IMG/VR virus record: IMGVR_UViG_3300011440_000025
Span: 1-54,933 of that record
DNA from: a virus
Strand: one strand, 5' to 3'
Length of the DNA: 54,933 bases
A program made the position numbers and the translations under genes. Shown here in pieces: positions 1,774-51,658 of the stretch. Position 1 is the first letter of the stretch; each line of letters starts with the position of its first letter. The notes beneath the pieces were generated by a model. It had not been told where the DNA came from, made no database searches, and saw only the letters and a program-made list of their open reading frames with translations.

Positions 1774-1797
1774 TTTAAAACTAAAACCTTAGTTTTC
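1774..1797. repeat. Palindromic 24-base repeat, copy 1
   Basis: Contains AAAACTAAAACCTTAGTTTT (1777-1796), an inverted repeat with arms AAAACTAA and TTAGTTTT. The 24 bases 1774-1797 recur exactly at 54219-54242. Exact conservation in two gene-free stretches argues for a protein-binding site rather than chance. The ribbon-helix-helix-like protein at 1344 is one candidate ligand. Confidence 0.65.
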
Positions 1798-1949
1798 GAG
1801 CCTAAAACCTAGTACGAAAACCTTCGTAATAGAGCCTTTTCGAATACCCCTCTGGCGCTGTCTAAATAGGCCCCCAGACTTTACCAGAAGCCCGTGGTTA
1901 CACGCTAGGCTAAAACCCGTAATACCCTACCTTTAAAAAAAAGTAAGCT

Positions 1950-2159
1950 ATGAAGTTAAAAGACTTAAAACCGTCAAAGGTCGTTCGTCCGTTCGTTACT
2001 ACTCCAAAACTCCTTATATATATAGAGCAAGAAGCTAAAAAGATTCTAGCCTATATAGTAGAAGTAAATGGAACGAAGAAACGATTTGAAATCAAGAACC
2101 ATAATTATTTGTTAACCTTTAAAAAATTAGTATCTTATGTCGAAAAAAATCTCAAGTGA
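1950..2159 (+). CDS. Hypothetical protein
   Basis: A 69-residue basic protein of unknown function, rich in Lys, with a likely beta strand pair (YIVEVNGTKKRFEI, about residues 35-48) and an amphipathic C-terminal helix. It begins the carbohydrate/replication module and overlaps the next gene by 23 bases. Confidence 0.55.
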   Translation: MKLKDLKPSKVVRPFVTTPKLLIYIEQEAKKILAYIVEVNGTKKRFEIKNHNYLLTFKKLVSYVEKNLK

Positions 2160-2388
2160 AAACGCATACTCCAAACATTGGAAAGACATGCCAGAGTTTA
2201 AACAAAACGATCTTAGACCTATTAAACAAATTCTTGTATCTTTTGCTACACCTGAAAGCATTGTAAAATTTAGTAAGCTGGTTGGACAGAAGGTTCTTAA
2301 GGATACCCAAAGTATATGGTATCCTCAAGTACCTAATGTACCGCTTATGAATAAAAGATGGACAGACTCTAAACCTAAGAAGAAATGA
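2137..2388 (+). CDS. Small conserved 'MPEF...SIWYP' domain protein
   Basis: An 83-residue protein consisting almost wholly of a compact domain with the signature HWKDMPEF, then Q-x-D-x2-P-x-K-x-I-x-V-x-F, then LVGQ and TQSIWYP near residue 66. From memory of phage and bacterial sequences this pattern recurs in small proteins and next to ParB-type domains in phage DNA-modification neighbourhoods; I cannot verify that here and no biochemical role is known to me. It overlaps the sulfotransferase-like gene by four bases (ATGA), which places it in the same transcription unit as the sugar enzymes. Confidence 0.65.
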   Translation: MSKKISSENAYSKHWKDMPEFKQNDLRPIKQILVSFATPESIVKFSKLVGQKVLKDTQSIWYPQVPNVPLMNKRWTDSKPKKK

Positions 2389-2984
2389 TAACCCACGACC
2401 ACAAGTTAATTTTTATACACATACCCAAGTGTGCTGGTAGAAGTATAAGCGATGCGTTTAACCAAAGATTCGATCACTTTACAGCTCGCCACTACGCTAC
2501 GGAATATCCTGAATGCTTTCACGAATATACTAAGTTTACAGTTGTCCGTAATCCATACGATAGGTTAGTGTCGCTCTTCCATTATATTAAGGAGCACCGC
2601 AGGCATTCCACAGAATCCATCTACTGCGGTATGGATTTTAAAACGTGGTTAATCAGAAATATGATAGCCTATACTAGAGAGGCAAAGAAGGACTCTCCAG
2701 AATTGGAACGCGGAACAGACGGACAAGTAGGTAGTCCATTTCAATTCGCATCCCAGCAAAGTTTTTTAGGTACTTGGGAGAAACAATTTCTGGTATTCTT
2801 TTTTGAAGATATGAAAGCTGTAGCGACCTTCCTAGAAGAAAAAGGGAATGCTAAGCTAGGGCATTTAAATTCTTCTAAGCATCATTTTTGGATGGAGTAT
2901 TACGACTTGGAACTATGTGAGTTATGTCGATACTTCCCACCTATAGTAACTGATTGCAAAGCGTTTAACTATAAGCTACTATGA
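2385..2984 (+). CDS. Sulfotransferase-family protein
   Basis: A 199-residue protein with the two nucleotide-binding elements of PAPS-dependent sulfotransferases. The 5'-phosphosulfate loop is FIHIPKCAGRSI at residues 10-21. The 3'-phosphate region is FTVVRNPYDRLVSLFHYI from about residue 51, with the conserved Arg and a Ser six residues on. The family moves a sulfuryl group from PAPS to sugars or other hydroxyl acceptors. It is short for the family, so it may be a minimal enzyme. The start overlaps the previous stop (ATGA), and its own stop overlaps the mutase start, which suggests a shared pathway. The acceptor is unknown. Confidence 0.75.
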   Translation: MITHDHKLIFIHIPKCAGRSISDAFNQRFDHFTARHYATEYPECFHEYTKFTVVRNPYDRLVSLFHYIKEHRRHSTESIYCGMDFKTWLIRNMIAYTREAKKDSPELERGTDGQVGSPFQFASQQSFLGTWEKQFLVFFFEDMKAVATFLEEKGNAKLGHLNSSKHHFWMEYYDLELCELCRYFPPIVTDCKAFNYKLL

Positions 2985-4090
2985 AGTATGATTATCTTAT
3001 AGTAGGAGCTGGAGTATTTGGATGTACTTTCGCACATGAGGTGACTAAGCATGGTTATAAGTGCCTAGTCATAGACCAGCGTAATCACTTAGGTGGTAAT
3101 ACTTACTGCCTAGACATTAATGGTATACCTATCCATAACTATGGAGCACACATCTTCCATACGAATAGTGAGCTCTTATGGAAGTATGTTAATCAGTTTA
3201 CTCGTTTCGAGCCGTTTGTTAACTCTCCATTAGCTATGCGAAACAATAGGTTATACAATCTACCATTTAATATGAATACGTTCTATCAGATATGGGGTAT
3301 CGCTGATCCGGAAAAAGCAAGGCAACAAATAATAAGTGAACTAACGGATTATATAAACCCCATTAACTTAGAACAGCAATCCACTAACTTGGTAGGCACT
3401 ACACTCTATAATTTAATTATCAAAGGCTATACCCAAAAACAATGGGGCAGACCGTGTACGGAATTACCTCCATTTATTATCAAGCGCTTACCTATACGCT
3501 ATACCTTTAATAATAATTACTTTAACGACTACTATCAGGGTATACCAGAACAAGGATACAATCCAATGATTCAAGGGATGCTAAAGGATATTCCATACGA
3601 ACTTGGGACACCCTATACTAAAGGACATGATTATAATTGTAAAAAGATAGTATACACAGGATCGCTGGATGAATACTTCGAATACTGTTACGGTGTACTT
3701 CAATACCGCTCTCTAGAATTTGAGCACCATGAGACGTATACAAAGAACCATCAAGGAACTCCAGTTATAAATTATGGAGATGTGCAGATCCCTTATACCA
3801 GGTCCATTGAACATAAACACTTCTATAGGCAATTCACTAATAATAGTAGTGTAGTTTCAAAGGAGTTTCCGATAGAATGGTCGCTGGGCAAAGAAAGGTA
3901 TTACCCAATCAACGATACCAATAACCAAGTATTGTTTTTAAAGTATACGCAACTTGCGGATAAAGAAACGAACGTAATTTTTGGAGGACGTCTTGCCGAG
4001 TATCACTACTACGATATGCATCAAGTTATTGCCTCAGCTCTCAAAGCAGCCCATAAAGAAACCAACACACGCTATGAAATGCAATACTAA
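2981..4090 (+). CDS. glf: UDP-galactopyranose mutase
   Basis: A 369-residue flavoenzyme converting UDP-galactopyranose to UDP-galactofuranose, the donor for galactofuranosyl transfer. The dinucleotide-binding loop GAGVFGCTFAHE is at residues 8-19. The second FAD motif DQRNHLGGN is at about 32-40, followed by YGAHIFHT and GYTQKQWG, both typical of the family. Length matches bacterial enzymes (about 367). It is cytoplasmic and contiguous with a sulfotransferase-like gene and a glycosyltransferase gene, so the furanose sugar is probably used by a phage-encoded transferase. Starts by ATGA overlap with the upstream gene. Confidence 0.93.
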   Translation: MKYDYLIVGAGVFGCTFAHEVTKHGYKCLVIDQRNHLGGNTYCLDINGIPIHNYGAHIFHTNSELLWKYVNQFTRFEPFVNSPLAMRNNRLYNLPFNMNTFYQIWGIADPEKARQQIISELTDYINPINLEQQSTNLVGTTLYNLIIKGYTQKQWGRPCTELPPFIIKRLPIRYTFNNNYFNDYYQGIPEQGYNPMIQGMLKDIPYELGTPYTKGHDYNCKKIVYTGSLDEYFEYCYGVLQYRSLEFEHHETYTKNHQGTPVINYGDVQIPYTRSIEHKHFYRQFTNNSSVVSKEFPIEWSLGKERYYPINDTNNQVLFLKYTQLADKETNVIFGGRLAEYHYYDMHQVIASALKAAHKETNTRYEMQY

Positions 4091-4298
4091 ATTTGCTGGA
4101 TGTTTTAACCAGGAATGTTTAAAAGATTTTACATGTAAAGATTCTCTAAGAGATGATTTATATAGCTACTCCAACGATGAAATTATATTCAAGGCCTTGC
4201 TAGGTAACAAGAATCCATACGTTGAAGAATTGGCTAAACGATTTAAATCATTTACTAACAGTACTAAGGAAAACAATAAAAAGAAAAAGAAAGTATGA
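4074..4298 (+). CDS. Small cysteine-rich protein
   Basis: A 74-residue protein if the ATG at 4074 is used; a longer open frame from 3981 would be entirely inside the mutase gene and out of frame, so the short start is preferred. Cysteines at 3, 10, 15 and 21 suggest a small metal-binding knuckle, and the C-terminus is a Lys-rich tail. Overlaps the mutase gene by 17 bases and the glycosyltransferase gene by four, placing it inside the sugar operon. Function unknown. Confidence 0.6.
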   Translation: MKCNTKFAGCFNQECLKDFTCKDSLRDDLYSYSNDEIIFKALLGNKNPYVEELAKRFKSFTNSTKENNKKKKKV

Positions 4299-5116
4299 AT
4301 CCAAGCTATCCAGTATATATAATAAGTAAGGGCAGGTGGGAGAGTCGGTACACCGCCAAGACATTAGACTATATGAAAGTGCCCTATAGAATTGTTGTTG
4401 AACCGCACGAGTATCTTAAATATGCCGCAGTTATCAATTCCAAAAAGATATTGGTACTACCTTTTAAAAATGTAGGGTGTCCTATACCAGCTAGAAATTG
4501 GGTATGGGAACATAGCATTGCTGAGGGCCATAAGCGCCATTGGATACTCGATGATAACATAAGCTACTTCTTTAGGCTCAACCATAACATGAAGATACCC
4601 GTGGACTCTGGTACCATATTTAAAATATGTGAGGAGTTTACAGATCGCTACACGAACATAGGTCTTAGCGGTATGCAGTATTTTATGTTTGCTAGTCGTA
4701 AGGCAAAACAAAATCCGTTTATATTAAATACACGAATCTATTCTTGTATATTAGTAGACAACTCATTACCTTTAAGATGGAGAGGTACATATAATGCAGA
4801 CACTGATCTAAGCATACGAGTATTACAGTCAGGATTATGTACCGTATTATTCCAAGCCTTCCTATGTGGTAAGATGCAAACGATGACCGTAAAGGGTGGT
4901 ATGACGGACTCCCATCTTAATAATGGTAGATTGAAAATGGCAGAGTCACTTAAGAGGCAGCACCCAAAGCTAGTTACTATAAAAGATAAGTTTGGCCATC
5001 CCCAACATGTAGTTGACTATAGCGCATTTAAGGATAACAAACTTATTTTTAAAAAAGGAATTAATATAAAAGACGGAATAAACAATTATGGACTTGAACT
5101 AATTAAACTACACTAA
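4295..5116 (+). CDS. TET-associated-type glycosyltransferase (copy 1)
   Basis: A 273-residue GT-A-like protein. It shows the pattern I know from the TET-associated glycosyltransferase (TAGT) family: N-terminal VYIISKGRW, VVEPHEY at about 34-40, PARNWVWEHS at 65-74, and RHWILDDNI at 81-89 with the acidic pair D86/D87 as the likely metal and nucleotide-sugar site. A downstream NADTDLS element is probably the acceptor-side acidic patch. The family was proposed from comparative genomics to glycosylate hydroxymethylated bases in phage DNA. Located directly after the mutase genes and four bases before the polymerase. A paralogue is at 6836. Substrate and acceptor are not visible from sequence. Confidence 0.75.
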   Translation: MNPSYPVYIISKGRWESRYTAKTLDYMKVPYRIVVEPHEYLKYAAVINSKKILVLPFKNVGCPIPARNWVWEHSIAEGHKRHWILDDNISYFFRLNHNMKIPVDSGTIFKICEEFTDRYTNIGLSGMQYFMFASRKAKQNPFILNTRIYSCILVDNSLPLRWRGTYNADTDLSIRVLQSGLCTVLFQAFLCGKMQTMTVKGGMTDSHLNNGRLKMAESLKRQHPKLVTIKDKFGHPQHVVDYSAFKDNKLIFKKGINIKDGINNYGLELIKLH

Positions 5117-5120
5117 ACCC

Positions 5121-6833
5121 ATGGGAAATTTTATAGCAGTAGACATCGAAACAACCGGACTCCATCCGATACCTGGTAAGTCAAAGATATTTTGCATTAC
5201 TCGTAACGATGGAAAAAGAATGACGCTCCACGAAAACATAAAAGATATACAGCACGAGTTGGAAGATCCATCTATTATTAAAATAATTCATAATGCAAAG
5301 TTTGATTGCCTCTGGTTAAAACGAATGCATGGAATAACAGTAACTAATATATGGGACACGAGAGTAATGGAACAAGTTATACTGGGAGAGAATTTACCAC
5401 GGCGTGAAAAAAACGTCGAAAAATTAAAGGAGCTCAGTTCGTCTCTTCTATGGACACTCCAGCGGTATGGTTTACCAGCACTCGAAAATAAAGAAATGGG
5501 AAAGTCATTTACTGAACGTCCTATAGATAAACCACTTACACAAGCTGAACGAGATTATGCTATAAACGACGTGCGCCATCTTCCTCAATTAATGGTAGCT
5601 CAGATAAGTAGAATACAAAAGCTTGGACTACAGAAGGTAGCTGCCCTTGAAAATAAGTTAGTTGAAGTACTTGTCGATATGGAGGACAGGGGCATTGGCT
5701 TCGATAAGAGTATTTGGTTGGGTATAGCGAGACAATATACACAGGAATCAAAAGACTTATTAAAACGACTACCATCTGATGTTGCTAACTGGGACAGCCC
5801 ATCGCAAGTAAAAAAATACTTTGCTAAGCAAGGGGTGTTAATAGAATCCTATAACGAGCTTGAAGAGTTGGGTCCACGATACAATAATCCTATACTAAAT
5901 AAGTTTATTGAATACCGCGCATACTATAAAAACTTAACAACTTATGGAAGTAGTTGGTTAGTAGATGATGAGAAAGGTAGTACATTAGATCCTGATGGGA
6001 GAGTCAGAACACGTTATGAGCAAGTAATGAATACAGGTAGGTTATCTTCAGCCCATCCCAACCTACAACAAATTCCCGCAAACACTTTACACCGCACCGC
6101 TTTTATACCTAAGAAAGGACACGCGTTTATTATCGCAGATTTTAGTAACCAAGAAATCGGTATAGCAGCTGCCGCATCCAAAGAGAAGATATGGATAGAT
6201 ACTTTATTAAGGAGAGATGATATACATAGTCTTACAGCAAGTATAATATATCCAGAGAGATGGGCAAAGGGAAAAGAAAAAAAGTGCGCCTTTCCTAAAA
6301 AATGTAAATGCCCACATCACTTAGCTCAACGACAAGATGGAAAAGTATTTAATTTTAAAATACTGTATGGCTCTGGACCTAAATCTATTGCCGAGTATTT
6401 ACAGATACCATACTATGACGGGGTGGCTGTACTAAGTAAATTCAAAAGAGTCGTTCCATCCCTCACAAATTGGTTAAACACTAACGTAAAGAATAGCATT
6501 AAAGAAAGGATATCATATAGTGCAGATAAGTATAGACGTAGGCGGACGTTGAGGGATCCAGAAGATTGGATGGTCAGAACAGTAGCCATGAATAACCCTA
6601 TTCAAAGTTGTGGCGCTAACATGATCAAGCTAGCGATGGTATCACTTCCTAAAGGAGCACCTATAGTATTATCAGAACATGACTCGCTTGTTCTAGAGGT
6701 ACCCAAGAAAGATGTGAAGAAGTGGTCGAAGATACTCAAAACGACTATGGAAAAGGCAGCTGACCATTGCACAGATATAGTTGGTTTAATAGAGGCAAAA
6801 CCAAGAGAGGCATATAATTTACTTAAAGACTAA
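5121..6833 (+). CDS. polA: DNA polymerase I (family A) with 3'-5' exonuclease
   Basis: A 570-residue replicative polymerase. The N-terminal DEDDy exonuclease has VDIETTG at 7-13, HNAKFD at 57-62 and YAIND at 146-150. The polymerase has motif A IIADFSNQE (D340), motif B R404/K408/F412/YG416-417 and motif C SEHDSL (H520, D521). It lacks the 5' nuclease domain, as phage T7-type enzymes do. Between motifs A and B is a Cys/His-rich insert (C389, C395, C397, H399, H400) that could bind zinc; I recall similar inserts in other Bacteroidota phage polymerases. It sits between two related glycosyltransferase genes, an unusual position. Confidence 0.95.
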   Translation: MGNFIAVDIETTGLHPIPGKSKIFCITRNDGKRMTLHENIKDIQHELEDPSIIKIIHNAKFDCLWLKRMHGITVTNIWDTRVMEQVILGENLPRREKNVEKLKELSSSLLWTLQRYGLPALENKEMGKSFTERPIDKPLTQAERDYAINDVRHLPQLMVAQISRIQKLGLQKVAALENKLVEVLVDMEDRGIGFDKSIWLGIARQYTQESKDLLKRLPSDVANWDSPSQVKKYFAKQGVLIESYNELEELGPRYNNPILNKFIEYRAYYKNLTTYGSSWLVDDEKGSTLDPDGRVRTRYEQVMNTGRLSSAHPNLQQIPANTLHRTAFIPKKGHAFIIADFSNQEIGIAAAASKEKIWIDTLLRRDDIHSLTASIIYPERWAKGKEKKCAFPKKCKCPHHLAQRQDGKVFNFKILYGSGPKSIAEYLQIPYYDGVAVLSKFKRVVPSLTNWLNTNVKNSIKERISYSADKYRRRRTLRDPEDWMVRTVAMNNPIQSCGANMIKLAMVSLPKGAPIVLSEHDSLVLEVPKKDVKKWSKILKTTMEKAADHCTDIVGLIEAKPREAYNLLKD

Positions 6834-6835
6834 AT

Positions 6836-7621
6836 ATGAAATATCCAATTTACATTCCATCTAAAGGAAGGGCAGATAACCAAAAAACAGTTAAGCTGCT
6901 CGAAGAAAACAATATCAAGAACTACAAGGTGGTAGTTGAAGAAAACGAGTATAGTAAGTACAACGAGTTTATTAGTGTTCGGAACCTTCTGAGGTTGCCC
7001 AGCTCCAACTATGGAACAGTATCCGTTGCTCGCAATTATGCTATAGAGCATTCAAAAAAGATGGGGTACACAAAGCATTGGCAACTGGATGATGACATAG
7101 GAAAAATATACCTACATGATAAAGGTAAGGTAATCCATGAAGATATAAACAAGGTGCTTTCGGATATAGAAAACACCCTAGAGAAAAAACAATTAAGTCC
7201 TATATTACTTGCTGGACTTACCACATCTGCATCCTTCTTAGCGAGTAAAACAAAGGACTATACGTTGAACACATCCCTAACTTCGTGTGTTCTTATAACT
7301 AATACACCGTTGAGGTTCCGTATAAAGATGCTAGAAGATACAGACTATCAACTACGCATACTTAAACAAGGCGGTTCCATATTAAAATTTAATAACTACG
7401 CATTTGCATACACGACTCAGCTAAAACAAATTGGAGGCTACACTAGCATATATAACGATACGGCTAAACGCATGGAAGGTTTGAAAGAATTTTTAGATCT
7501 GTATCCTGAAGTGTCTCCGGAAATTATTAAAAAGCCAAACGGTATGCTTAAGATTAAAAACATACGATTCGTATGGGCAAAATATAAAAAGAATAATCAA
7601 ATTTTACTTAAACATCTATAA
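6836..7621 (+). CDS. TET-associated-type glycosyltransferase (copy 2)
   Basis: A 261-residue paralogue of the protein at 4295, with the same ordered motifs: YIPSKGRADN at 6-15, VVVEENEYSKY near 32-42, VARNYAIEHS at 64-73, HWQLDDDIG at 81-89 (DDD instead of DDN), and EDTDYQLRILKQGG further on. Divergence outside the motifs is large, so the two probably differ in sugar or acceptor. Two bases separate it from the polymerase stop and two from the ParB-like gene. Possible sequential transferases building a disaccharide; this is inference. Confidence 0.72.
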   Translation: MKYPIYIPSKGRADNQKTVKLLEENNIKNYKVVVEENEYSKYNEFISVRNLLRLPSSNYGTVSVARNYAIEHSKKMGYTKHWQLDDDIGKIYLHDKGKVIHEDINKVLSDIENTLEKKQLSPILLAGLTTSASFLASKTKDYTLNTSLTSCVLITNTPLRFRIKMLEDTDYQLRILKQGGSILKFNNYAFAYTTQLKQIGGYTSIYNDTAKRMEGLKEFLDLYPEVSPEIIKKPNGMLKIKNIRFVWAKYKKNNQILLKHL

Positions 7622-7623
7622 AC

Positions 7624-8253
7624 ATGAAAAAATCAAACATTATTTGGGACTGCATTAAAGTAAGTGTACCTAAGATTAAACCAACGCCTAACAATTTTAA
7701 ACTCTTCGATGAGGAAGGGGCTGCGGTATTCCGGAACTCACTTGACTCATTTGGTAAGGCAGGTTCAGTTATTATTAATAAGGACTACACATTGATTGAT
7801 GGCAATACTAGGTGGAAGGATGCAGTAGAAAACAAAGAGAAATTTCTTTGGGCTTCTATTCCATCACGACTGCTTACGGCCAAAGAGTTCAACGTCATGT
7901 CGGCCATATTCGATAGGGCACGTGCTGGACAAGTAGATACCCTACGCATAAGTGAAGAGTGGTCAAATCAGAAGGGTAATACGAAGTCTTTTTTCAAAGC
8001 CTGGGGTATACCAATGCCTGAAGAAGTATTAAAGAAACTTGAGGATATGGAGAATGGAGTAATCACCCCGGACAAAAAGAAGATAACCGAAAAAGAAATA
8101 CATGATGTGGACGTGATGCCTATTACATTAATTTTTACACCGGCCGAACACAAGAAGTATATGGAGATAGCAGAATCATTATACAAACGTTTTAAGGTTG
8201 ATAATGTCACCGATCTTACAATGAAAGCGATGATCTATGTCAAAAAAAATTAG
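7624..8253 (+). CDS. ParB/sulfiredoxin-fold protein
   Basis: A 209-residue protein with a ParB N-terminal-like core. The element YTLIDGNTRWKDAVE (residues 55-69) corresponds to the ParB box (hydrophobic strand, D-G-x-x-R-W). This fold binds nucleotides (CTP in chromosomal ParB) and occurs in phage DNA-modification clusters as well as in nucleases. The C-terminal part is helical and may bind DNA, but no partition-type helix-turn-helix is obvious, and no ParA is encoded nearby. Its place right after the second glycosyltransferase favours a role in nucleic acid modification over partition. Confidence 0.65.
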   Translation: MKKSNIIWDCIKVSVPKIKPTPNNFKLFDEEGAAVFRNSLDSFGKAGSVIINKDYTLIDGNTRWKDAVENKEKFLWASIPSRLLTAKEFNVMSAIFDRARAGQVDTLRISEEWSNQKGNTKSFFKAWGIPMPEEVLKKLEDMENGVITPDKKKITEKEIHDVDVMPITLIFTPAEHKKYMEIAESLYKRFKVDNVTDLTMKAMIYVKKN

Positions 8254-39760: not shown

Positions 39761-42154
39761 ATGGCTGTAGTATTAGGAGTAAGTTCCGGATTTGTTATAA
39801 CAGCGCCAACGGCTGACCCTGCTGGTGCTGTTAATACTACTATTGATGGTTCATCGGTAGTAACAAAAGATACTGCTCCAAAAGGTGCCACCATTACCAT
39901 AACAGAAATTGGTTGGTATCGTGGTGCCGGAACTAACGCGGCCAATTTTGAAATTGCATTATATTCTGAGTCGGCTGGTATTGCGTCTACTAGGGTACAA
40001 GTTGATGCAACTAATTCAAGTACGTCCGGTGGCTGGACCGTTGTAACAGGATTAAGCTGGGCAGTAACTGAAAACACCGCGTATTGGTTAGCGGTGCAAA
40101 TGGATGCCCATAGCGGATCAAGTACAATAGATGGTGAAGCGTCTGGTGGTGCCGGTGTTGATGTTCTAACTTCCCAAACAACTCTTAACAATCCGTATGG
40201 AGGTGGTACGGTATCCGATGCAGATGGTTTATATGCTATCTATGCAAAGATAAGTATTGTTCAAAATCTTGCTCCAGCAGTAGGCGCAGCAACATGGGAA
40301 GGGTTTGCACCTACTGTAGTTGGTGGTAGTGGCTCACCTGTTAATGTTACCCCAAGCGTTGGAGCAATGGTGGCAACGGGGTTTGCTCCTATCGTTGCAG
40401 CAAGTAATGAATATCAAGTATTGTTAGATAGGGCAACTACACTTACTTATGGACATCCTACAGCTGGACAAAAGATAAAACAAAATACACTTTTTTCTAG
40501 GATAAAATCCGCTGGTTTATTAGATGATATAGAAGCCATGTGGATATTTGCAACGGATAGTAATTCAGATTTCGCTACATTGAATTGGATAACACCAGCT
40601 AGTTATCAATGTACAAAAGTTAACTCCCCTGTCCATACACTTAATCAAGGATTTAATGGTAACGATTCAAACTCTTATTTAAATACTAATTTAGCCACAA
40701 ATCAACTTGTTAAAGCAACAGTAAGTTCAGTATCTTTTTTAATAGATATAAAGTATTGGCCGCTTACAAATGGTTTTCAAATTGGATCAGGAAGTGATTC
40801 TATATCTTTTTCGTTATATAATACAGTTGCTAAACTTATTGGTGGTGACTCCAACTTTGATATGGGGGAAACCCCACCTGTTGGAACATGGTTCGCTGAT
40901 AGAAGTGGAACGGATGTTAACATTTACAACAGTAATAGCTTATATAAAAATGTTACCACAGCTACTGGAACTGCTCATGAGTACCCTATTTGGATAGATG
41001 CTATGAATGAGGGTGCGGGATCAAATTATAATGACGCACTCATAAGAGTTTTAATAATAGCAAAGCATCTTGACAGCACTAAGCGAACAGCATTATACGA
41101 TGCGGTTACTGCTTATATAAATTCAATTACTGAAGCGTTTCCAAATGTTGGTGCAGGTACCTTTAATGGATTCGCACCTACTGTTTCCGTAACTACTAAT
41201 CAAAATATTACTACGGATGTTGGTGCAGGAACATTAATTGGATTTGCTCCTACTGTTGAAACACCATTAAATATAACGGCTGACCTAGGGGTTGCTACCT
41301 TCGTTGGATTTGAACCTACAGTAACAGCTGGATCAGGCTTAACTATTTTACCAGATGTTGGAGTAGGGATACTTACAGGTTTTGGTCCTACTGTAGTTGC
41401 AACAGATCATAAAAATATAATCGCTGACTTAGGGGTTGCGGTATATACTGGGTTTGCTCCAGTAGTATTTGCATCAGACCATAAGAATATAATAACGGAT
41501 ATAGGAGCAGCAACCTATAATGGATTTGTTCCTACCATTACTACTCCAATAAATTTAAATGCTGGTGTAGGAGTATTAACTGCTACAGGATTTGCTCCAT
41601 CCGTTGCCACTCCAAGAGAAGTGTCTCCGGGGATTGGAGTATGTATTTATAATGGATTTGCACCAACATTAGTATTGCCAAGGAATATAACGGTTGATCT
41701 AGGGGTTGCATTATATAATGGATTCGCACCGTCAGTAGCGGCTGGATCAGGGGTACTACCAGATGTTGGTAGTATATTAGCTACAGGATTTGCGCCAACC
41801 GTATCCGTAACTAACCATATAAATATAACGCTTGATGTTGGAGCAGCAACGTATACAGGTTTTGCACCTACAGTATTTGCAAGTGATTCTAAAAATATAT
41901 TAATAGGATTAGGTGAAGCAACTTTAAATGGATTTGAACCAACAGTATTTGCTAGCGACAATAAGAATATCGCTATAGGATTAGGTGAGATGGTAATGGT
42001 TGGATATAATCCAGCTATAGGTACACAACCTACAACAGTTTTTCCAGATATAGGAGCAGCCATATTCTTAGGATATGAACCTACTGTAGTTGCCTCAACC
42101 ACTCCAGTAAATGTTCCGGAACCAAAACGTATGAGGGTAATTTACTTAGATTAA
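39761..42154 (+). CDS. Repeat-rich fibre protein with lectin-like domain
   Basis: A 797-residue protein. An N-terminal beta domain (about 1-165) is followed by two short repeats. Next comes a concanavalin/LamG-like domain (about 225-465; SVSFLIDIKYWPLTNGFQIG, IRVLIIAKHLDSTKRTALYD), then fourteen further repeats of about 25 residues with core D-x-G-x-A-x3-G-F-A-P-T-V. In all I count sixteen repeats, variable only at core-facing positions. The same unit ends the protein at 28445. Probably a beta-rich fibre shaft with a glycan-binding head. Confidence 0.72.
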   Translation: MAVVLGVSSGFVITAPTADPAGAVNTTIDGSSVVTKDTAPKGATITITEIGWYRGAGTNAANFEIALYSESAGIASTRVQVDATNSSTSGGWTVVTGLSWAVTENTAYWLAVQMDAHSGSSTIDGEASGGAGVDVLTSQTTLNNPYGGGTVSDADGLYAIYAKISIVQNLAPAVGAATWEGFAPTVVGGSGSPVNVTPSVGAMVATGFAPIVAASNEYQVLLDRATTLTYGHPTAGQKIKQNTLFSRIKSAGLLDDIEAMWIFATDSNSDFATLNWITPASYQCTKVNSPVHTLNQGFNGNDSNSYLNTNLATNQLVKATVSSVSFLIDIKYWPLTNGFQIGSGSDSISFSLYNTVAKLIGGDSNFDMGETPPVGTWFADRSGTDVNIYNSNSLYKNVTTATGTAHEYPIWIDAMNEGAGSNYNDALIRVLIIAKHLDSTKRTALYDAVTAYINSITEAFPNVGAGTFNGFAPTVSVTTNQNITTDVGAGTLIGFAPTVETPLNITADLGVATFVGFEPTVTAGSGLTILPDVGVGILTGFGPTVVATDHKNIIADLGVAVYTGFAPVVFASDHKNIITDIGAATYNGFVPTITTPINLNAGVGVLTATGFAPSVATPREVSPGIGVCIYNGFAPTLVLPRNITVDLGVALYNGFAPSVAAGSGVLPDVGSILATGFAPTVSVTNHINITLDVGAATYTGFAPTVFASDSKNILIGLGEATLNGFEPTVFASDNKNIAIGLGEMVMVGYNPAIGTQPTTVFPDIGAAIFLGYEPTVVASTTPVNVPEPKRMRVIYLD

Positions 42155-45648: not shown

Positions 45649-46055
45649 CACTGCTGCCGACACTTATTGAATCTTGGCTAGATCGTAAAGGAGAAAAGAA
45701 GCAAGGAAAAATAAAGGACACTATCTGGTTAACAGTTGGTAGTGTCCTTTATATTATGGTTACTTGGAAAATTTTTAATCAGAATCCATTTATCATACTT
45801 GCTTATATCCTTATGTGGCGAGTAACCTTGTTTGATTACCTGACGAATTTTATGTTGAAGAAGTTTAGCGATGGGCATAAGCAAATTAATATTTGGAAGT
45901 ATACTGGTACGACTACATTTTGGTGGGACCAGCTAACGAGTAAGATAGATTGGAGATGGAGATTGATTTTTAGAATAGTGATCCTTGCCGCAGGTGTGAG
46001 TCATCTGATACTTCCTTTCCCATACGATATATATGGAATACATATAAACCATTAA
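45630..46055 (+). CDS. Membrane protein at end of late operon
   Basis: A 141-residue protein with about three hydrophobic segments (residues 33-47, 52-66, 114-128) and an aromatic-rich loop. It contains a 13-base perfect inverted repeat in its coding sequence (45711-45752) and ends 86 bases inside the convergent glycosyltransferase gene. Function unknown. Confidence 0.5.
   Translation: MVYKILTLLPTLIESWLDRKGEKKQGKIKDTIWLTVGSVLYIMVTWKIFNQNPFIILAYILMWRVTLFDYLTNFMLKKFSDGHKQINIWKYTGTTTFWWDQLTSKIDWRWRLIFRIVILAAGVSHLILPFPYDIYGIHINH
45711..45752. repeat. Perfect 13-bp inverted repeat
   Basis: ATAAAGGACACTA (45711-45723) and TAGTGTCCTTTAT (45740-45752) are exact reverse complements around a 16-base loop. 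The stem has T-rich flanks on both strands, so it could act as a bidirectional attenuator or terminator near the convergent junction of the plus and minus operons. Confidence 0.6.
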
Positions 46056-46527
46056 TGATCCGCATGGTCTTTGCTCCTTTACAAAACATCTTATCAAATG
46101 TTTTCTTTCCATCAATAACTTTCTCTTGAAACTTATTCTTTTCCCAATAAGATTTTTTAAAGAGCATGTAGAATCCTGCAACCATAGGAATATCCGCACA
46201 TAGTTGTTTACTACATAAATGTTTAGCGTGAACAATCTGGTCCCATATATCCCCACTCCTAAAAAGATCAGGGGCAGTTGTTTCCCATCTCTCTTCTATC
46301 TGCCATAGGTATCCTGACCGATTAGTATATGCACCAAAGATATCCGTATCTGGATAATTTATAATAGCATTTTCAATAACACGATTACTATCTTTGCAAA
46401 GTATCATTGCGTCCTGATCTAAAAGTTGTATCCATTCATATGGACTCGCAGCGCAGTGATCATTAAGCACACGACCAAATTGATTTGGATCTGTACAGAA
46501 AGGTTGTATTCTAAAAATGTCTATCAT
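45970..46527 (-). CDS. GT-A-fold glycosyltransferase-like protein
   Basis: A 185-residue protein from the ATG at 46527; a longer frame to 46572 overlaps the previous gene and is less likely. EWIQLLDQDAMIL (31-43) contains the D-x-D metal motif at 37-39, and MVAGFYMLFKKSYWEK resembles the acceptor-side loop of GT-A enzymes. Last gene of the minus-strand glycosyltransferase operon; its 3' end overlaps the convergent late operon by 86 bases. Confidence 0.65.
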   Translation of the reverse strand: MIDIFRIQPFCTDPNQFGRVLNDHCAASPYEWIQLLDQDAMILCKDSNRVIENAIINYPDTDIFGAYTNRSGYLWQIEERWETTAPDLFRSGDIWDQIVHAKHLCSKQLCADIPMVAGFYMLFKKSYWEKNKFQEKVIDGKKTFDKMFCKGAKTMRIINGLYVFHIYRMGKEVSDDSHLRQGSLF

Positions 46528-46528
46528 A

Positions 46529-46723
46529 TTATTTTTTCTTTCTTTTAGTTTTAGATTTAAGTTTGGGTTCACCGTCTGGCTTTGCCCAATTCATCCTAGC
46601 CAATTCTTCTATTGGTTGATTAAACATATAAAGAACATCTAACTTAGCAAGTTCCTCTATGGATTGTGGGGACAATGATGCAATCCATTTGTCTCGTTTA
46701 ATTTTAAATTCTTCTGGTGTCAT
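46529..46723 (-). CDS. Small hypothetical protein
   Basis: A 64-residue protein starting at 46723 (ATGA overlap with the upstream mini membrane gene). Begins MTPEEFKIKRDKWIASLSPQ and ends in a run of Lys/Arg. An in-frame extension to 46765 crosses that upstream gene and is not favoured. Function unknown. Confidence 0.5.
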   Translation of the reverse strand: MTPEEFKIKRDKWIASLSPQSIEELAKLDVLYMFNQPIEELARMNWAKPDGEPKLKSKTKRKKK

Positions 46724-46821
46724 ACTACAATAATTAATATAATTAACAATAATACTATTACCCAAAGCACCGCATTGATATTCTTAAGCATCGTTGCGAT
46801 TGTTTTCATATCCTCTTCCAT
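46720..46821 (-). CDS. 33-residue membrane peptide
   Basis: Short gene fitted exactly between neighbours: its ATG (46821) lies one base after the upstream stop and its TGA overlaps the next ATG. The product has a charged N-terminus and a single very hydrophobic helix (AVLWVIVLLLIILIIVV). A longer frame to 46944 lies inside the preceding gene. Confidence 0.45.
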   Translation of the reverse strand: MEEDMKTIATMLKNINAVLWVIVLLLIILIIVV

Positions 46822-46822
46822 A

Positions 46823-47842
46823 TTATAGTTTTTTAATTTCGTGTTTATACGCCTTGAATGCCGACTCTCTATGGATACCGACCACATATGTTTCCTCTTC
46901 ACAACGATCAGACTCTGGCCATATCTCAAATACCTTAAGGACAATTCCTTTCGAGTTAATTACGATGTCCCCTTTATTAATTTCTCGAATAGGTTCCGGG
47001 TTGCTATTACTATCCAAGAACCCTATCTCATTAGCAGGTGTCATACAGTAGTTTAAGAATACGTATGGGTGCATAAGATTTATGGACCTGATTAACATAG
47101 GTTGATAAGCGTTCATAAGTAAGCCTAGTATGGATTGATCATGACGGTGCCCCATCTTCTTATCTTCTTCAGCTTGCCAGAAACTAAAGTCACCCTCTAT
47201 CTTACTATTTGCTGGACCCATAGCACAACACTTGTCAATACTATTCCAATATAACCACTCGTTAACAAGTAACTGGCTCTTAGCATTCTTTCTTATTATA
47301 AACATACCTGAGGCGCACTGAAATGATCTTCGATACTTTTCCATATGCATAGTATTGATGCAAAGTTCAGTAGTAAAGTTTTCGTGGGTATGGATACCAA
47401 GAGCATGAGTTGACTTAGTACGGTTATCCCAATTAACAAATGGTGCTATGATACCTCCACAATTATCCAGTAGCGTATCTAGGTTATGGATATCTGGTCG
47501 CTTCAAGTGATTACGGTCACCTCCTATAAAATCCATAGTCCACATTTCCGGAGAGCAGTCTTGATATATAAGTATATCTCCTTCATCGATCTTCTTAAGT
47601 GCTTCAGAGATTGCGAACGGTTTATATGCTCTGCCGTTTCTTGCTGGATCAACATGGTCAAGGAGAGTTCTATTTTGTTTATAGAAGTCCGTGTCTATTA
47701 TATCATCCCAGCAAGGCATATAAAATTCGTCTATAAGCTGGAACGGTCGTAAGAGTTCTATCATATTCAATTGTGTCTTACGATAGATTCCACCTTTTCT
47801 ACCCATACGATCATCTGATACTGTTACTAATATTGTCTTCAT
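46823..47842 (-). CDS. Glycosyltransferase-like protein
   Basis: A 339-residue protein likely of GT-A type. DEGDILIYQDCSPEMW (about 86-101) is in the position of the nucleotide-sugar motif, though it reads D-x-S rather than D-x-D. GMFIIRKNAKSQLLVNEW and GHRHDQSILGLLMN are typical of capsule/O-antigen-related transferases. A short beta-rich C-terminal region follows (REINKGDIVINSKGIVLKVF). Overlaps the GT2 gene by four bases. Confidence 0.6.
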   Translation of the reverse strand: MKTILVTVSDDRMGRKGGIYRKTQLNMIELLRPFQLIDEFYMPCWDDIIDTDFYKQNRTLLDHVDPARNGRAYKPFAISEALKKIDEGDILIYQDCSPEMWTMDFIGGDRNHLKRPDIHNLDTLLDNCGGIIAPFVNWDNRTKSTHALGIHTHENFTTELCINTMHMEKYRRSFQCASGMFIIRKNAKSQLLVNEWLYWNSIDKCCAMGPANSKIEGDFSFWQAEEDKKMGHRHDQSILGLLMNAYQPMLIRSINLMHPYVFLNYCMTPANEIGFLDSNSNPEPIREINKGDIVINSKGIVLKVFEIWPESDRCEEETYVVGIHRESAFKAYKHEIKKL

Positions 47843-48525
47843 ATACTTCCTTTTCTCCTCATATAATAAACTGTTTCTTGCTTAGTTTGTTTTGCCTTAT
47901 CCAGCATCGATTCTCCTGGTGCATGCTTTCTATAATAAAATAATATCTCTGGTATGGTATGAATCTTATATCCATACTTTGTTGCTCTTAACCAGAACTC
48001 CCAATCCTCATACCCTTGTCTCATTAGTTCATCGTATCCACCTAAGTTCCACCACATCTTACGAGAAAACAACGAGCAACAATTAAGACGGTTTGTTATA
48101 CGTAAGTCTTCCCATGTAGGAGATGGATGTGGCTTACTTACTCTAGTATATTGTCCAAAGGTTTCAAGATACGTTGATATAATATCACGCTCTCTATACT
48201 TATATTGTGCTACCATCTTTTCTATACAGGTAGGATGGATTTTATCATCGGCGTCCAGCGGTAACACTAAACCATCATCTTCTGGTATTGCACATATTCC
48301 GGTGTTACGAGTTGCGGCAAGTCCCCTATTACGTGGATGATGGATTATGGGTATGTCCAAATAATTCACGTACTCAGAAATAAACTTACCTTCAAGTAAT
48401 TCTGTAGAGCAGTCATCTACTATAATAATTTCTATGTTCTTATAGGTTTGTGCTCTTACAGAATCTATAGCTTCAGCTATATATTTGTAATGGTTATAAC
48501 AGGGTATAACTACTGTTACTTTCAT
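47839..48525 (-). CDS. Family 2 glycosyltransferase
   Basis: A 228-residue GT2 enzyme. TVVIPCYNHYKYIAEAIDSV (4-23) is the nucleotide-binding start, IIIVDDCS (33-40) the first acidic site, GLAATRNTGI (68-77) the next, and LPLDADDKIHP (88-98) the D-x-D metal site. GYEDWEFWLRATKYGYKI is the catalytic-base region. Cytoplasmic, transferring a sugar to a lipid-linked or protein glycan; acceptor unknown. ATGA overlaps at both ends. Confidence 0.88.
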   Translation of the reverse strand: MKVTVVIPCYNHYKYIAEAIDSVRAQTYKNIEIIIVDDCSTELLEGKFISEYVNYLDIPIIHHPRNRGLAATRNTGICAIPEDDGLVLPLDADDKIHPTCIEKMVAQYKYRERDIISTYLETFGQYTRVSKPHPSPTWEDLRITNRLNCCSLFSRKMWWNLGGYDELMRQGYEDWEFWLRATKYGYKIHTIPEILFYYRKHAPGESMLDKAKQTKQETVYYMRRKGSI

Positions 48526-48686
48526 ACATAGATAAATGTTAAGGTTACTTGATTATCATACTGCCCTTGACTCTGAGTTGTAAAAAGTATTTGGATACTA
48601 TTTAAACTTTCAAACCATTCGGTAACATCCCTTTCTATTTGATATGCACTACCTGCAAATGTTTTTACTCTTATTGTTTTTTCCAT
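48522..48686 (-). CDS. 54-residue hypothetical protein
   Basis: Fills the 145-base gap between two glycosyltransferase genes. The ATG at 48686 overlaps the end of the fusion gene by 16 bases and the TGA overlaps the GT2 ATG in the same ATGA style as the rest of the operon. The product is mixed strand/helix (KTFAGSAYQIERDVTEWFES, then strands). Family unknown. Confidence 0.55.
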   Translation of the reverse strand: MEKTIRVKTFAGSAYQIERDVTEWFESLNSIQILFTTQSQGQYDNQVTLTFIYV

Positions 48687-50278
48687 GGCCATGTATTTAT
48701 TTCTTGTCTAAGTTCGTCTTTTGTAAGTGCTTTGATTCTACGTAGCTCTTGATCATTTGCCTTAAAGTGTCTATGGGTATTAAGACTATTAGGACCAGTC
48801 CAGTGATTAAGATGATACATATTATTCCCAAGAACTCTTTCAATGCGATAACCCAATTTTTCAAACCGATACATACGTTCAACATCTTCTGCACCATAGC
48901 TAATAAAGTTTTCATTTTCCATTCCTCCATCTATAAACGATTCTTTGTTAAAGCCTACTGCTCCACCAAGACTTACTACGTCACTAGTATTCATTCCATT
49001 AAATCTTGTATCGCCAACTAGTCCAACGTCCCCGTCATAGTCTCTTATCTTTTCAAACCATGTGTTACGTGGCATACGAGCGAACGCCCACTTATAAGGA
49101 TAGACCATATCCGCACCACTACGTAACATCTCTACTGCCTGTAGTATTTGTAATGGAGCAATAAAAACATCTACGTCCCAATTAAAGATATATCTGCGAC
49201 TTGTATTACGAGCCATATTGTTTAATGCTTTCGTCCTATGCATTACTGGAGTGTACATAAGATCATAGCGATGGCAATAGAAGTGTCCCTTATCTTGTAG
49301 GTAAGTCAGCTTTGGTTCATGGTCATACATCTCAGTTACATACACCTCAGCATCTTCAAAGTACCTGTGGAAAAATCGTAGGAGTATTTTAAGATTTTCT
49401 TCACGGTCTTGGTGGTCGTAGTATACTGGAATTTGAAAACTAACATCGATTAATTTTATTTTTTTGTCCTGTCTATCGGTATCCCGTTGGTGATTAAACT
49501 TATAGTAGTTGGGTGGATAATAATCCTTGATATCATTTTTACGCAACAACTGTCCATTGAAATGATGGACAGGTCTTATAATTGTTTTATGTAGTGCGGT
49601 TGAAAGATATGAACCCCACCAAGAGAAAGTAGAATTACCAATAATAAAATCATCACACTGAGACATAAGGCAGATATCTTCAATATCAGAATTGTTTTCT
49701 GAGAAGGTAACATTAGGCAGACAACCGAAATGGTTACGGCAATAAGGTATGTCGTCTGAGAAGATAATAATGTCCCGTTCTTTCCAGTCATCAAAAAATT
49801 CAATAAGCGCCCTGTAATAGTAACCAATAACTGGAAGCAAATGATAGTTAGGATTCCCCACGTAATCCCCACGGCGTATGGATAACGCAATTGGATTGAG
49901 CTTAGTATCAAACTTAATTGTTTGCTTAACACGCTCCACGAACTCTTTCTTAAAGGTAAGCGCACTACGTACTTCTTTTTCATAGTCTTGCCAATATTTA
50001 TATGATTGCAAATATCCGTATACATCTACTTGATCGTTATCACGAATCGCTGGCCAATCAGGTACGTAACTAAAAGTTGTTTCCTTTACTTCACGTCCCC
50101 ATAGATCATCTTCGTTACCTACTGGAAACTCTCCTTCAAAATACTCTGCACATTTCCATGCAGGTAACTTAAGATGGGCACCGAATTTTTTACTGATTCC
50201 TATCATACTTGCATATTGAAACAACTGGTTGCCTAGCCTACCATTGTTTCCAAATGATGTCATTGTTATTTGTTTCAT
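48671..50278 (-). CDS. Fusion: GT11 fucosyltransferase-like plus GT-A galactosyltransferase-like
   Basis: A 535-residue two-domain enzyme. Residues 1-260 are alpha-1,2-fucosyltransferase-like (GT11): GRLGNQLFQYA at 13-23, SIRRGDY at 134-140, FSDD at 174-177 and FIIGNSTFSWWGSYL at 212-226. After a charged linker, residues 276-535 form a GT-A domain: FNWDVDVF with D-x-D at 366-373, and GGAVGFNKESFIDGG with GAEDVERMYRFEKLGY, as in the galactosyltransferase C-terminal family. It probably adds two sugars in sequence. First of the glycosyltransferases in the minus operon. Confidence 0.85.
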   Translation of the reverse strand: MKQITMTSFGNNGRLGNQLFQYASMIGISKKFGAHLKLPAWKCAEYFEGEFPVGNEDDLWGREVKETTFSYVPDWPAIRDNDQVDVYGYLQSYKYWQDYEKEVRSALTFKKEFVERVKQTIKFDTKLNPIALSIRRGDYVGNPNYHLLPVIGYYYRALIEFFDDWKERDIIIFSDDIPYCRNHFGCLPNVTFSENNSDIEDICLMSQCDDFIIGNSTFSWWGSYLSTALHKTIIRPVHHFNGQLLRKNDIKDYYPPNYYKFNHQRDTDRQDKKIKLIDVSFQIPVYYDHQDREENLKILLRFFHRYFEDAEVYVTEMYDHEPKLTYLQDKGHFYCHRYDLMYTPVMHRTKALNNMARNTSRRYIFNWDVDVFIAPLQILQAVEMLRSGADMVYPYKWAFARMPRNTWFEKIRDYDGDVGLVGDTRFNGMNTSDVVSLGGAVGFNKESFIDGGMENENFISYGAEDVERMYRFEKLGYRIERVLGNNMYHLNHWTGPNSLNTHRHFKANDQELRRIKALTKDELRQEINTWPWKKQ

Positions 50279-50601
50279 GTTATAGAAAACTTTTTTAAGT
50301 TCTGTGCTTTAGCAAATGTTACTTCATCTAACTTACTAAGGTATACTGGACCTAGTATTAGTATAGGATTATTTTCATCATCCCATTGGCAAGTAAATCC
50401 TGCTTTACATTCTTTAAATGCTTGTAACGTAATCGTTTCTTTATCTCCTATTATTGCGCTATCAACAATATTATTTTTTGTTGGGTATCCATCGTGTAGA
50501 CATACAGTTGTTATTTTAAGTGTAGCTAAAATAGAAGTGTCTTTATTAAGACGTTCTATAAAGTCATCATGACCCCTTGGTTTATCTCCGTAGTTTAACA
50601 T
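50275..50601 (-). CDS. Hypothetical protein
   Basis: A 108-residue protein from the ATG at 50601 (a TTG at 50610 would add three residues). Alpha/beta character with HDDFIERLNKDTSILATLKI and VCLHDGYPTKNNIVD. Overlaps the fusion glycosyltransferase gene by four bases. No family recognised. Confidence 0.55.
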   Translation of the reverse strand: MLNYGDKPRGHDDFIERLNKDTSILATLKITTVCLHDGYPTKNNIVDSAIIGDKETITLQAFKECKAGFTCQWDDENNPILILGPVYLSKLDEVTFAKAQNLKKFSIT

Positions 50602-51227: not shown

Positions 51228-51658
51228 TTTGTTTCTTGTTTAAATCGTTTCATAATTTTTTTCTTAAGATCATCTCTATCTTTACACCATACAAACTCGT
51301 ATCTAGTTTCCATAGTAGCTACAATTTTATCTAAAGTCTCTGGTCGCATTTTTCTTTCGTTGCCTTTCGGGAACTTGAGCTGGACAAAGTTCTTTCGTAT
51401 GCATTCAACATAGATAGCAATTTTAATACGCCTACTTTTAGCCAAGCACAGCATGTTAACAAACCTAAAATGATTCTGTATAATGCTTTGATATAAATCT
51501 TGCGGTGACTTTCTTTCAATGTGAAACTTGTTTAGTAGTAACTCCGTTGTGTAATCTCCTACATCTAGTTTATGTTTCTTCCATCCTAAAAAAGATATAG
51601 GTAACTGTTCCCTGGTATCAACCAGTACTATACTCCTATTCGACTTTTTCTGCTTCAT
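51224..51658 (-). CDS. ERCC4-type nuclease
   Basis: A 144-residue nuclease of the XPF/MUS81 catalytic family. LVDTREQLP (12-20), VGDYTTEL (33-40) and IERKSPQDLYQSI (47-59) form the G-D-x-n-E-R-K-x3-D signature. It is a single domain without the helix-hairpin-helix part, as in phage Holliday-junction or flap nucleases. Probably cuts branched DNA during recombination or before packaging. Confidence 0.85.
   Translation of the reverse strand: MKQKKSNRSIVLVDTREQLPISFLGWKKHKLDVGDYTTELLLNKFHIERKSPQDLYQSIIQNHFRFVNMLCLAKSRRIKIAIYVECIRKNFVQLKFPKGNERKMRPETLDKIVATMETRYEFVWCKDRDDLKKKIMKRFKQETK

Follow-up and report, generated by a model that had tools for sequence, protein, structure and literature searches.

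Gene Content and Organization

Between positions 2137 and 8253, the window (the whole 54,933-nucleotide stretch of viral DNA analyzed here) carries genes for two TAGT-type glycosyltransferases, a UDP-galactopyranose mutase (UGM) and a sulfotransferase-like protein, together with DNA polymerase A (PolA) and a ParB-like protein (Table 1). Every gene named for this region in the first-pass annotation was found, in the same order and place and on the plus strand throughout, and the E-values of the family assignments are far beyond chance. The genes had also been described as joined mostly by ATGA overlaps; such overlaps are found at 2385, 2981 and 4295, but the TAGT1/PolA, PolA/TAGT2 and TAGT2/ParB junctions are gaps of 2–4 nt. 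The most likely start of the Cys-rich gene is the ATG at 4074, which gives a 17-nt overlap with the UGM gene; the product had no Pfam match above cut-off and none in PHROGs. A megablast search with the first 25 kb of the window found no close relatives among 50,697 phage records.

Table 1. Features of the polymerase-associated locus.
Feature	Position	Strand	Length (aa)	Evidence
Small MPEF/SIWYP protein	2137..2388	+	83	Stand-alone SIWYP domain; HMM from relatives
Sulfotransferase-like protein, PAPS-dependent (predicted)	2385..2984	+	199	PF03567 5.1e-11; phrog_3347 1.6e-14
UDP-galactopyranose mutase (UGM)	2981..4090	+	369	PF03275 2.7e-69; PDB 1i8t 2.1e-130
Cys-rich small protein	4074..4298	+	74	C-x6-C-x4-C-x6-C, read from sequence
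TAGT1, GT-A-fold glycosyltransferase (predicted)	4295..5116	+		PF20691 7.3e-42
DNA polymerase A with 3'-5' exonuclease domain	5121..6833	+		PF00476 2.3e-47; PF01612 9.7e-14
TAGT2, second TAGT	6836..7621	+		PF20691 2.5e-31; DDD and EDTD motifs
ParB-like protein	7624..8253	+	209	phrog_498 (ParB-DNA methyltransferase) 4.2e-7; phrog_620 1.2e-6

The TAGTs and the SIWYP Domain

TAGT1 and TAGT2 are 33% identical to each other and score 144.1 and 109.7 bits, respectively, against PF20691 (cut-off 27.5), with the domain covered over its full length. TAGT1 shares 54–64% identity with 80 viral relatives, and homologues that are mostly 39–46% identical are found in Aeh1 and other isolates. A DxD-type metal motif is present as DDN, invariant across 13 aligned homologues including TAGT1, and as DDD in TAGT2. 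The structural model of one homologue (locus L009) matches GT-A enzymes with Z up to 14.8, in a search that barely covered the SIWYP part. The closest folds are those of protein- and polysaccharide-glycosylating GT-A enzymes at 10–14% identity, a level at which fold similarity is uninformative about the acceptor. TAGT1 carries the private substitutions G62C, E168A, N203M and Y208L at positions that are invariant in 102 of 102 relatives. TAGT2 found no relatives in IMG/VR, the TAGT queries had no matches among plasmids, and the TAGTs of loci L141 and L163, used as queries, each found only themselves. The T4 alpha-glycosyltransferase family had no match in the window, with the positive control also silent. 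Donor-specific residues common to the TAGTs of epimerase-bearing loci were considered, and the idea gave nothing.

The small MPEF/SIWYP protein, correctly listed in the first-pass annotation, is the constant, key partner of this TAGT clade, a relationship that is invisible in a single sequence and emerges across 102 loci. In these non-redundant loci of TAGT1 relatives, an HMM places the SIWYP domain next to the TAGT or fused to it in 91; separate copies lie on the same strand in 86 of 86, and the domain stands 5' of the TAGT almost without exception. It overlaps the TAGT frame in 73 of the 102 loci, and in 42 it stands at the C-terminal end of a longer ORF. SIWYP-TAGT fusions occur in 6 loci and in isolates, for example Aeromonas phage phiAS5 and Tenacibaculum phage PTm1; Aeromonas phages Aeh1 and 65 are further isolates with a SIWYP-TAGT gene. 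Run against a further 1.06 Mb of viral DNA, the HMM had no matches.

The SIWYP-TAGT gene of Vibrio phage 1.076.O sits between portal and head-morphogenesis genes, a position that fits a virion-protein target and counts against a DNA-glycosylation model.

Association with Replication Genes

Two metagenome contigs encode a TAGT and a polymerase in one frame: SIWYP-TAGT-exonuclease-PolA (L007, 1091 aa) and TAGT-UDG-exonuclease-PolA (L001, 1062 aa). TAGT-PolA fusions are absent from the isolates, and in both contigs GC content is lower in the TAGT part than in the polymerase part, a difference that is clearest in L007. That these fusions come from two unreplicated metagenome contigs weighs against the DNA-glycosylation model. 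The UDG domain was considered as a special feature of L001 and set aside, since other phage polymerases align over the stretch preceding PolA as well.

A DNA polymerase lies within 3 kb of the TAGT in 8 further loci, and a processivity factor directly 3' of it in 5. The genes flanking TAGTs encode polymerases, sliding clamps, SSB, DNA methylases and terminases, with no surface-glycan genes among them; the clade is thus found with DNA genes and not with lipopolysaccharide genes. A constant association with the latter was what the first-pass annotation had named as telling against its DNA-modification proposal. Because the clade sits with DNA genes and occurs in two in-frame PolA fusions, the grouping of the window's TAGTs around PolA is probably functional. 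The window PolA itself had just two distant relatives in IMG/VR.

One of the 42 longer ORFs ending in SIWYP (L032) has a ParB domain at its N-terminus (PF02195, 5.1e-8), which is structurally a CTP-type ParB (6sdk, 2.6e-7, Foldseek) and matches the ParB-DNA-methyltransferase family phrog_498 at 1.2e-55. The window protein at 7624–8253 matched PHROG ParB families and had no Pfam match, ParB_N included, hence "ParB-like"; a homologue of it adjoins another TAGT in L163.

UGM, Sulfotransferase and Other Sugar Genes

The identity first proposed for the UGM is borne out by both matches in Table 1, that to PDB 1i8t extending over residues 3–355 and indicating full-length homology to solved UGMs. Judged by its sequence, the enzyme should supply UDP-galactofuranose. 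The sulfotransferase-like protein scores 43.6 bits against a Pfam cut-off of 22, with residues 2–89 alone aligned, and carries the motifs IHIPKCAGRS and VVRNPYDRLVS, which include the PAPS-binding PKCAGRS and RNPYDRLVS. It had no relatives in PDB (phmmer) or in IMG/VR.

The first-pass annotation had suggested surveying TAGT homologues for the two genes; UGM was found in 1 of 38 and the sulfotransferase in 1 of 40 TAGT records, in each case in the window alone. Viral UGM genes mostly lie apart from TAGTs and are usually accompanied by GT11-like and epimerase genes. SIWYP was absent from all 80 UGM loci. A TAGT turned up in L141 (HMM) and, as a distant match, in L163 (Pfam); further distant TAGTs may have escaped these searches. 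L141, an unrelated contig, has the order PolA, TAGT-like, TAGT, UGM (with a 4-nt overlap), beta clamp, a layout that favors the galactofuranose link originally drawn. The L163 gene at 5862–6611 was considered sulfotransferase-like for its SNSGSTWL motif, but that reading finds no support in Pfam or PHROGs and is given no weight here.

Other sugar genes within the module include an NAD-dependent epimerase (6 loci) and a UDP-glucose dehydrogenase (2 loci), and FkbM and other methyltransferases also enter it. The window's UGM and sulfotransferase genes lie between SIWYP and TAGT1, where other loci hold epimerases or methyltransferases. A galactofuranose or sulfated base in this phage is plausible.

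The minus strand of the window encodes GT11/GT7C, GT2 and phrog_14179 glycosyltransferases (50278–45970). Neither UGM nor the sulfotransferase is a conserved companion of the module, and both could serve these enzymes.

The Acceptor

All DNA glycosyltransferases characterized so far act, to our knowledge, on a base that bears a hydroxyl handle. A thymidylate synthase (TS)-superfamily (hydroxy)methylase was found in 0 of 48 viral contigs, the window among them and some possibly partial, with the control positive in 9 genomes; among the records searched, TS is confined to the large genomes of isolates and a single bacterial genome. TET/JBP dioxygenases were found in 0 of 53 records and, by hmmscan, in none of the window proteins, in a search with a silent control and possibly partial contigs. 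The Fe/2OG families PF13640 (0/1) and PF13759 (0/15) were likewise absent, with positive controls. Among the neighborhoods surveyed, there is no recurrent candidate acceptor-making enzyme beside the SIWYP-TAGT module, which leaves a gap in the proposed chemistry; in two loci, the gene immediately 3' of the TAGT encodes a radical-SAM protein.

The earlier observation that the 54,933-base record has no recognizable hydroxymethylase holds, for a record that may be incomplete and with the TET control silent. The accompanying premise, that the TAGTs glycosylate a hydroxymethyl base, is unsupported here because searches of the 48 contigs turned up neither a TS-type nor, less certainly, a TET hydroxymethylase. 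Aeromonas phages Aeh1 and 65 are absent from a list of phages with the dCMP hydroxymethylase gene 42 (PMC2993671).

Proposed Function

DNA as the substrate is supported by the SIWYP/ParB pairing, the PolA fusions and the replication and packaging neighbors, and the SIWYP-TAGT module probably attaches sugars to viral DNA during copying. The chances are about even that this region works as a DNA-glycosylation module within the replication operon of the phage, with a SIWYP-TAGT-tether core to which UGM and the sulfotransferase were added. The core would consist of the TAGT, the SIWYP domain and a DNA-tethering partner, either a ParB-type protein or a DNA polymerase. The SIWYP domain would dock the TAGT on the DNA-bound protein, and the TAGT, using an NDP-sugar, would glycosylate phage DNA at the replication fork or immediately behind it; the sugar may protect the DNA against host nucleases. 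Here, the core would have been opened to admit UGM, for UDP-galactofuranose supply, and a sulfotransferase that could cap the sugar; the TAGT1 changes at family-invariant residues may match the new donor, with TAGT2 possibly adding a second sugar. We infer DNA as the acceptor, the modified base and atom, the use of galactofuranose and sulfate and the anti-restriction role. The DNA-modification cassette of the first-pass annotation is thus borne out in part: it keeps its DNA-gene neighbors and gains the PolA fusions and a new SIWYP core, and its hydroxymethyl-base route is unsupported here. The most specific form of the proposal, in which a large environmental phage clade practices handle-free DNA glycosylation at the fork through SIWYP coupling to ParB or polymerase, here with sulfated galactofuranose, is a long shot. 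We know of no earlier furanosyl-galactose or sulfated nucleobase in DNA.

An unlikely but credible alternative is that SIWYP-TAGT acts on DNA while UGM and the sulfotransferase are passengers, feeding a separate virion or host-surface glycan through the minus-strand glycosyltransferases that the window possesses. Their absence from the other TAGT records searched and the usual company of viral UGM, GT11-like and epimerase genes and not TAGT, are consistent with this. However, the two genes are translationally coupled between SIWYP and TAGT1, at the site of epimerases and methyltransferases elsewhere, TAGT-UGM coupling recurs in L141 near PolA and a clamp, and the four changes at invariant positions are unique to the window TAGT1.

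A reading in which the target of the whole module is a protein, of virion or host, or a surface glycan instead of DNA is improbable. Phage glycan cassettes have been proposed to alter the host surface (PMC7824862), whereas the T2/T6 TAGT works on DNA (PMC13216743). The nearest GT-A folds and the head-gene setting in Vibrio phage 1.076.O are in keeping with a protein or glycan target, but that fold likeness is silent on the acceptor, and the fusions are to DNA polymerase A and a methyltransferase-type ParB, among replication and packaging neighbors.

A hydroxymethyl or hydroxy base made by the host or by an unrecognized phage enzyme, a hidden first step in the classical T-even/TET logic, would suit the hydroxyl handle used by characterized enzymes, the radical-SAM neighbors and a possibly incomplete record, but is very improbable given the TS, TET (control silent) and Fe/2OG results, the want of a recurrent candidate alongside the module and the absence of Aeh1 and 65 from the list of gene 42 phages.

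A 2026 study (PMC13216743) flagged TAGTs without a known glucosyltransferase partner as potential novel transferases. The SIWYP-TAGT module is widespread and little studied, and the galactofuranose and sulfate enzymes are unusual additions in this phage. Solitary-TAGT function becomes testable through the SIWYP partner, the fusions to ParB and polymerase and the accompanying NDP-sugar genes, which point to co-expression partners, to the replication fork as the site and to the sugars expected. Glycosylation of DNA without a hydroxymethyl handle would, if it occurs, be new base chemistry, and galactofuranose or sulfate, if used, would widen the range of phage DNA sugars.

Comparison with Known Systems

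Pyle et al. (Cell Rep 2024) reportedly describe virus-encoded glycosyltransferases that hypermodify DNA with diverse glycans, enzymes said to act on 5-hydroxymethylcytosine and to belong to TET-associated clusters. The T2/T6 TAGT (beta-glucosyl-HMC-alpha-glucosyltransferase, PF20691) shares its Pfam family and GT-A fold with the window TAGTs and glycosylates DNA (PMC13216743, PMC13390438). The T-even enzyme adds a second glucose onto glucosyl-hydroxymethylcytosine and occurs with an alpha-glycosyltransferase and a dCMP hydroxymethylase, whereas neither was found in the window, which has SIWYP, ParB and PolA partners.

Aeh1ORF087c is presumably the same gene as the Aeh1 SIWYP-TAGT fusion. Aeromonas phage Aeh1 ORF087c appears in PMC8056088 (citing Iyer 2013) as a presumed DNA glucosyltransferase acting on an unknown base. 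Solitary TAGTs, which like those of the window are without a known alpha- or beta-glycosyltransferase partner, account for 288 of the 753 phage genomes that encode such enzymes in PMC13216743; the portions of these two papers that deal with such enzymes do not mention the SIWYP domain, ParB or polymerase fusions, or UGM and sulfotransferase.

RB69, Mosigvirus NP and Shewanella phage Thanatos, with arabinosyl or pentosyl cytosine, provide a precedent for unusual phage-made NDP-sugars on bases (PMC13390438, PMC12838424). In these systems, a thymidylate-synthase-type enzyme produces, or may produce, the acceptor, whereas none was found in the window. Phage ParB-DNA methyltransferases (phrog_498) and the ParB near CmoX (PMC12783734) combine the same ParB module with a base-modifying enzyme. 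In phrog_498, that partner is a DNA methyltransferase, whereas in the present module it is a glycosyltransferase, joined through SIWYP.

Organization of the cluster

Every gene assigned to 2137-8253 by the first-pass annotation is present on the plus strand, in the order small MPEF/SIWYP protein, sulfotransferase, UDP-galactopyranose mutase (UGM), Cys-rich protein, TAGT1, DNA polymerase A, TAGT2 and ParB-like protein. The junctions, described as mostly ATGA overlaps, read so in the sequence at 2385, 2981 and 4295; UGM overlaps the Cys-rich gene (start 4074) by 17 nt, and the remaining junctions are gaps of 2-4 nt. The Cys-rich protein matches no known family.

Features of the window and of related loci
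Feature	Location	Strand	Evidence
Sulfotransferase	window, within 2137-8253	+	PF03567, 5.1e-11
UGM	window, within 2137-8253	+	PF03275, 2.7e-69
Cys-rich protein, 74 aa, C-x6-C-x4-C-x6-C, between UGM and TAGT1	window 4074-4298	+	sequence
TAGT1	window, within 2137-8253	+	PF20691, 7.3e-42
TAGT2	window, within 2137-8253	+	PF20691, 2.5e-31
29-nt repeat	window 1774-1802, 54219-54247
Repeat-rich protein	window 39761-42154
Collagen-like protein	window 43645-44088
Gene run	window 45970-54077	-
SSB-like, DUF3799 exonuclease, Gp157, ERCC4 nuclease	window, within 45970-54077	-
Glycosyltransferase	window 45970-46572	-	phrog_14179
Proteins without assignment	window 46823-47842, 50595-51227	-
GT2	window 47839-48525	-
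GT11+GT7C fusion	window 48671-50278	-
TAGT-polymerase fusion	contig L007, 5450-8725
TAGT-polymerase fusion	contig L001, 7030-10218
Radical-SAM/SPASM protein	contig L168, 7834-8814
249-aa protein	contig L163, 5862-6611	-	sequence

A constant partner of the TAGT clade

The small MPEF/SIWYP protein is the constant partner of this TAGT clade, members of which number at least 595 in IMG/VR, 14 in GTDB genome contigs and 24 in phage records (among 50,697), with none found in plasmids. By plain phmmer it matches all but approximately 7 of the first 80 TAGT loci, in which the sulfotransferase, UGM and Cys-rich protein find no match (counts include the window). When TAGTs more than 90% identical were dropped, 102 loci remained, and an HMM placed the SIWYP domain beside the TAGT, or fused to it, in 91. 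All 86 separate copies lie on the TAGT strand, 82 of them 5′ and 73 overlapping the TAGT frame; the HMM had no match in other viral loci totalling 1.06 Mb. The domain stands alone, makes up the C-terminal end of a larger protein (in 42 loci; the one example tested carries Pfam ParB_N) or is N-terminal to TAGT in a fusion (in 6 loci and in isolates that include Aeromonas phage phiAS5 and Tenacibaculum phage PTm1).

Window TAGT1 carries G62C, E168A, N203M and Y208L at positions otherwise invariant across 102 relatives. Private changes of this kind number 18 in the full set; four fall in window TAGT1, the next highest count being two. E168 adjoins the Asp that is conserved in the EDTD motif. From the sequence we read them as retuned donor or acceptor specificity, the alternative being relaxed constraint.

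DNA as the likely target

The target of the SIWYP-TAGT module is likely DNA. A single 1091-aa frame in L007 comprises SIWYP, TAGT (4e-42), exonuclease and DNA polymerase A (6.9e-50), while one of 1062 aa in L001 comprises TAGT (1.6e-48), UDG, exonuclease and polymerase A (2.3e-107), overlapped by a separate upstream SIWYP gene. In both fusions GC is lower over TAGT than over the polymerase, a difference clearest in L007; this fits capture of a mobile module, a contig artefact being the less likely alternative. A polymerase lies within 3 kb in 8 further TAGT loci, and a processivity factor (phrog_947, 2.4e-30) closely follows TAGT in 5. The Pfam families of 83 flanking proteins include helicases, DNA methylases, SSB, RecA, nucleases and terminases, and a sugar epimerase occurs only once among the families listed.

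The ParB part of SIWYP fusions matches the ParB-DNA-methyltransferase family phrog_498 (1.2e-55) and resembles the CDP-bound ParB structure 6sdk. ParBc proteins adjoin phage DNA methyltransferases and CmoX, according to PMC12783734. Because the fusions are to polymerase A and methyltransferase-type ParB, both recurrent partners are DNA-binding proteins. The best-known TAGT, that of T2/T6, glycosylates DNA (PMC13216743, PMC13390438).

The acceptor base

The classical reading, in which TAGT acts on a hydroxymethyl base, is not borne out: of 48 viral contigs, the window plus 47 others of at least 20 kb, none gave a match to the thymidylate-synthase superfamily (the search control matched). Genes of this superfamily turned up in isolate genomes of large size and in a single bacterial genome. 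Consistent with the first-pass annotation, which recognised no hydroxymethylase, hmmscan found no TET/JBP among the predicted proteins of the window; TAGT records searched outside it also gave no match, the control search being equally silent. Aeromonas phages Aeh1 and 65 encode SIWYP-TAGT and do not figure among the phages for which PMC2993671 lists gene 42, the dCMP hydroxymethylase gene; PMC8056088 lists Aeh1ORF087c as a presumed DNA glucosyltransferase, base unknown. In two loci, including L168, a Radical-SAM/SPASM protein lies immediately 3′ of TAGT, a possible source of modified base or sugar.

Sugar genes

Of the TAGT records searched, the window alone gave UGM (1/38) and sulfotransferase (1/40). 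The reverse survey, of 80 viral UGM loci, detected TAGT in L141 and a distant one in L163, and no SIWYP. L141, a contig unrelated to the window, encodes PolA (2.5e-92), a TAGT-like gene, TAGT (2.4e-23), UGM, with a 4-nt UGM/TAGT overlap, and a beta clamp. In L163 a homologue of the window's ParB-like protein overlaps a distant TAGT (1e-14), with UGM a few kb away; a 249-aa protein near UGM, with no family match, contains SNSGSTWL, resembling a sulfotransferase PAPS loop. In 6 other SIWYP-TAGT loci an NAD-dependent epimerase is inserted where the window has UGM and sulfotransferase, its motif LACPASPVHYQ suggesting a UDP-xylose synthase; UDP-glucose dehydrogenase or methyltransferases occupy this place in further loci.

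Remainder of the record

The window is an entire IMG/VR record of 54,933 bases. Its further genes include a helicase of Pif1/Dda type and a primase/helicase of VapE type, along with terminase, portal and capsid genes. The first 25 kb, run by megablast against phage records, gave no match. On the minus strand, recombination genes are interspersed with glycosyltransferases in one gene run, and the latter may serve either DNA-linked glycan extension or surface glycan synthesis. The repeat-rich protein, whose gene contains most copies of degenerate 66-72-nt repeats, is probably a tail or fibre protein, and a small protein has collagen-like Gly-X-Y repeats. An intergenic 29-nt repeat (93% identical) lies close to each record end.

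Proposed mechanism and known systems

In the reading favoured here, the module would glycosylate DNA at the replication fork, with SIWYP as its putative tether to DNA, UGM supplying a donor that is presumably galactofuranose and the sulfotransferase possibly capping the sugar; glycosylation, presumably of a base, would protect the phage DNA. Structure models of the homologues L032 ParB-SIWYP (mean pLDDT 83) and L009 SIWYP-TAGT (mean pLDDT 81) back the two folds, ParB and GT-A, but not any particular mode of SIWYP docking.

In the literature covered, which extends to neither Iyer et al. 2013 nor Pyle et al. 2024, no mention was found of SIWYP as a partner domain, of its fusions to ParB, TAGT and polymerase, or of a module that includes UGM and sulfotransferase. 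TAGTs without alpha-GT or beta-GT were reported previously (PMC13216743). DNA glycosylation is known for the T2/T6 TAGT (PMC13216743, PMC13390438); for the window's clade we infer it from genes.
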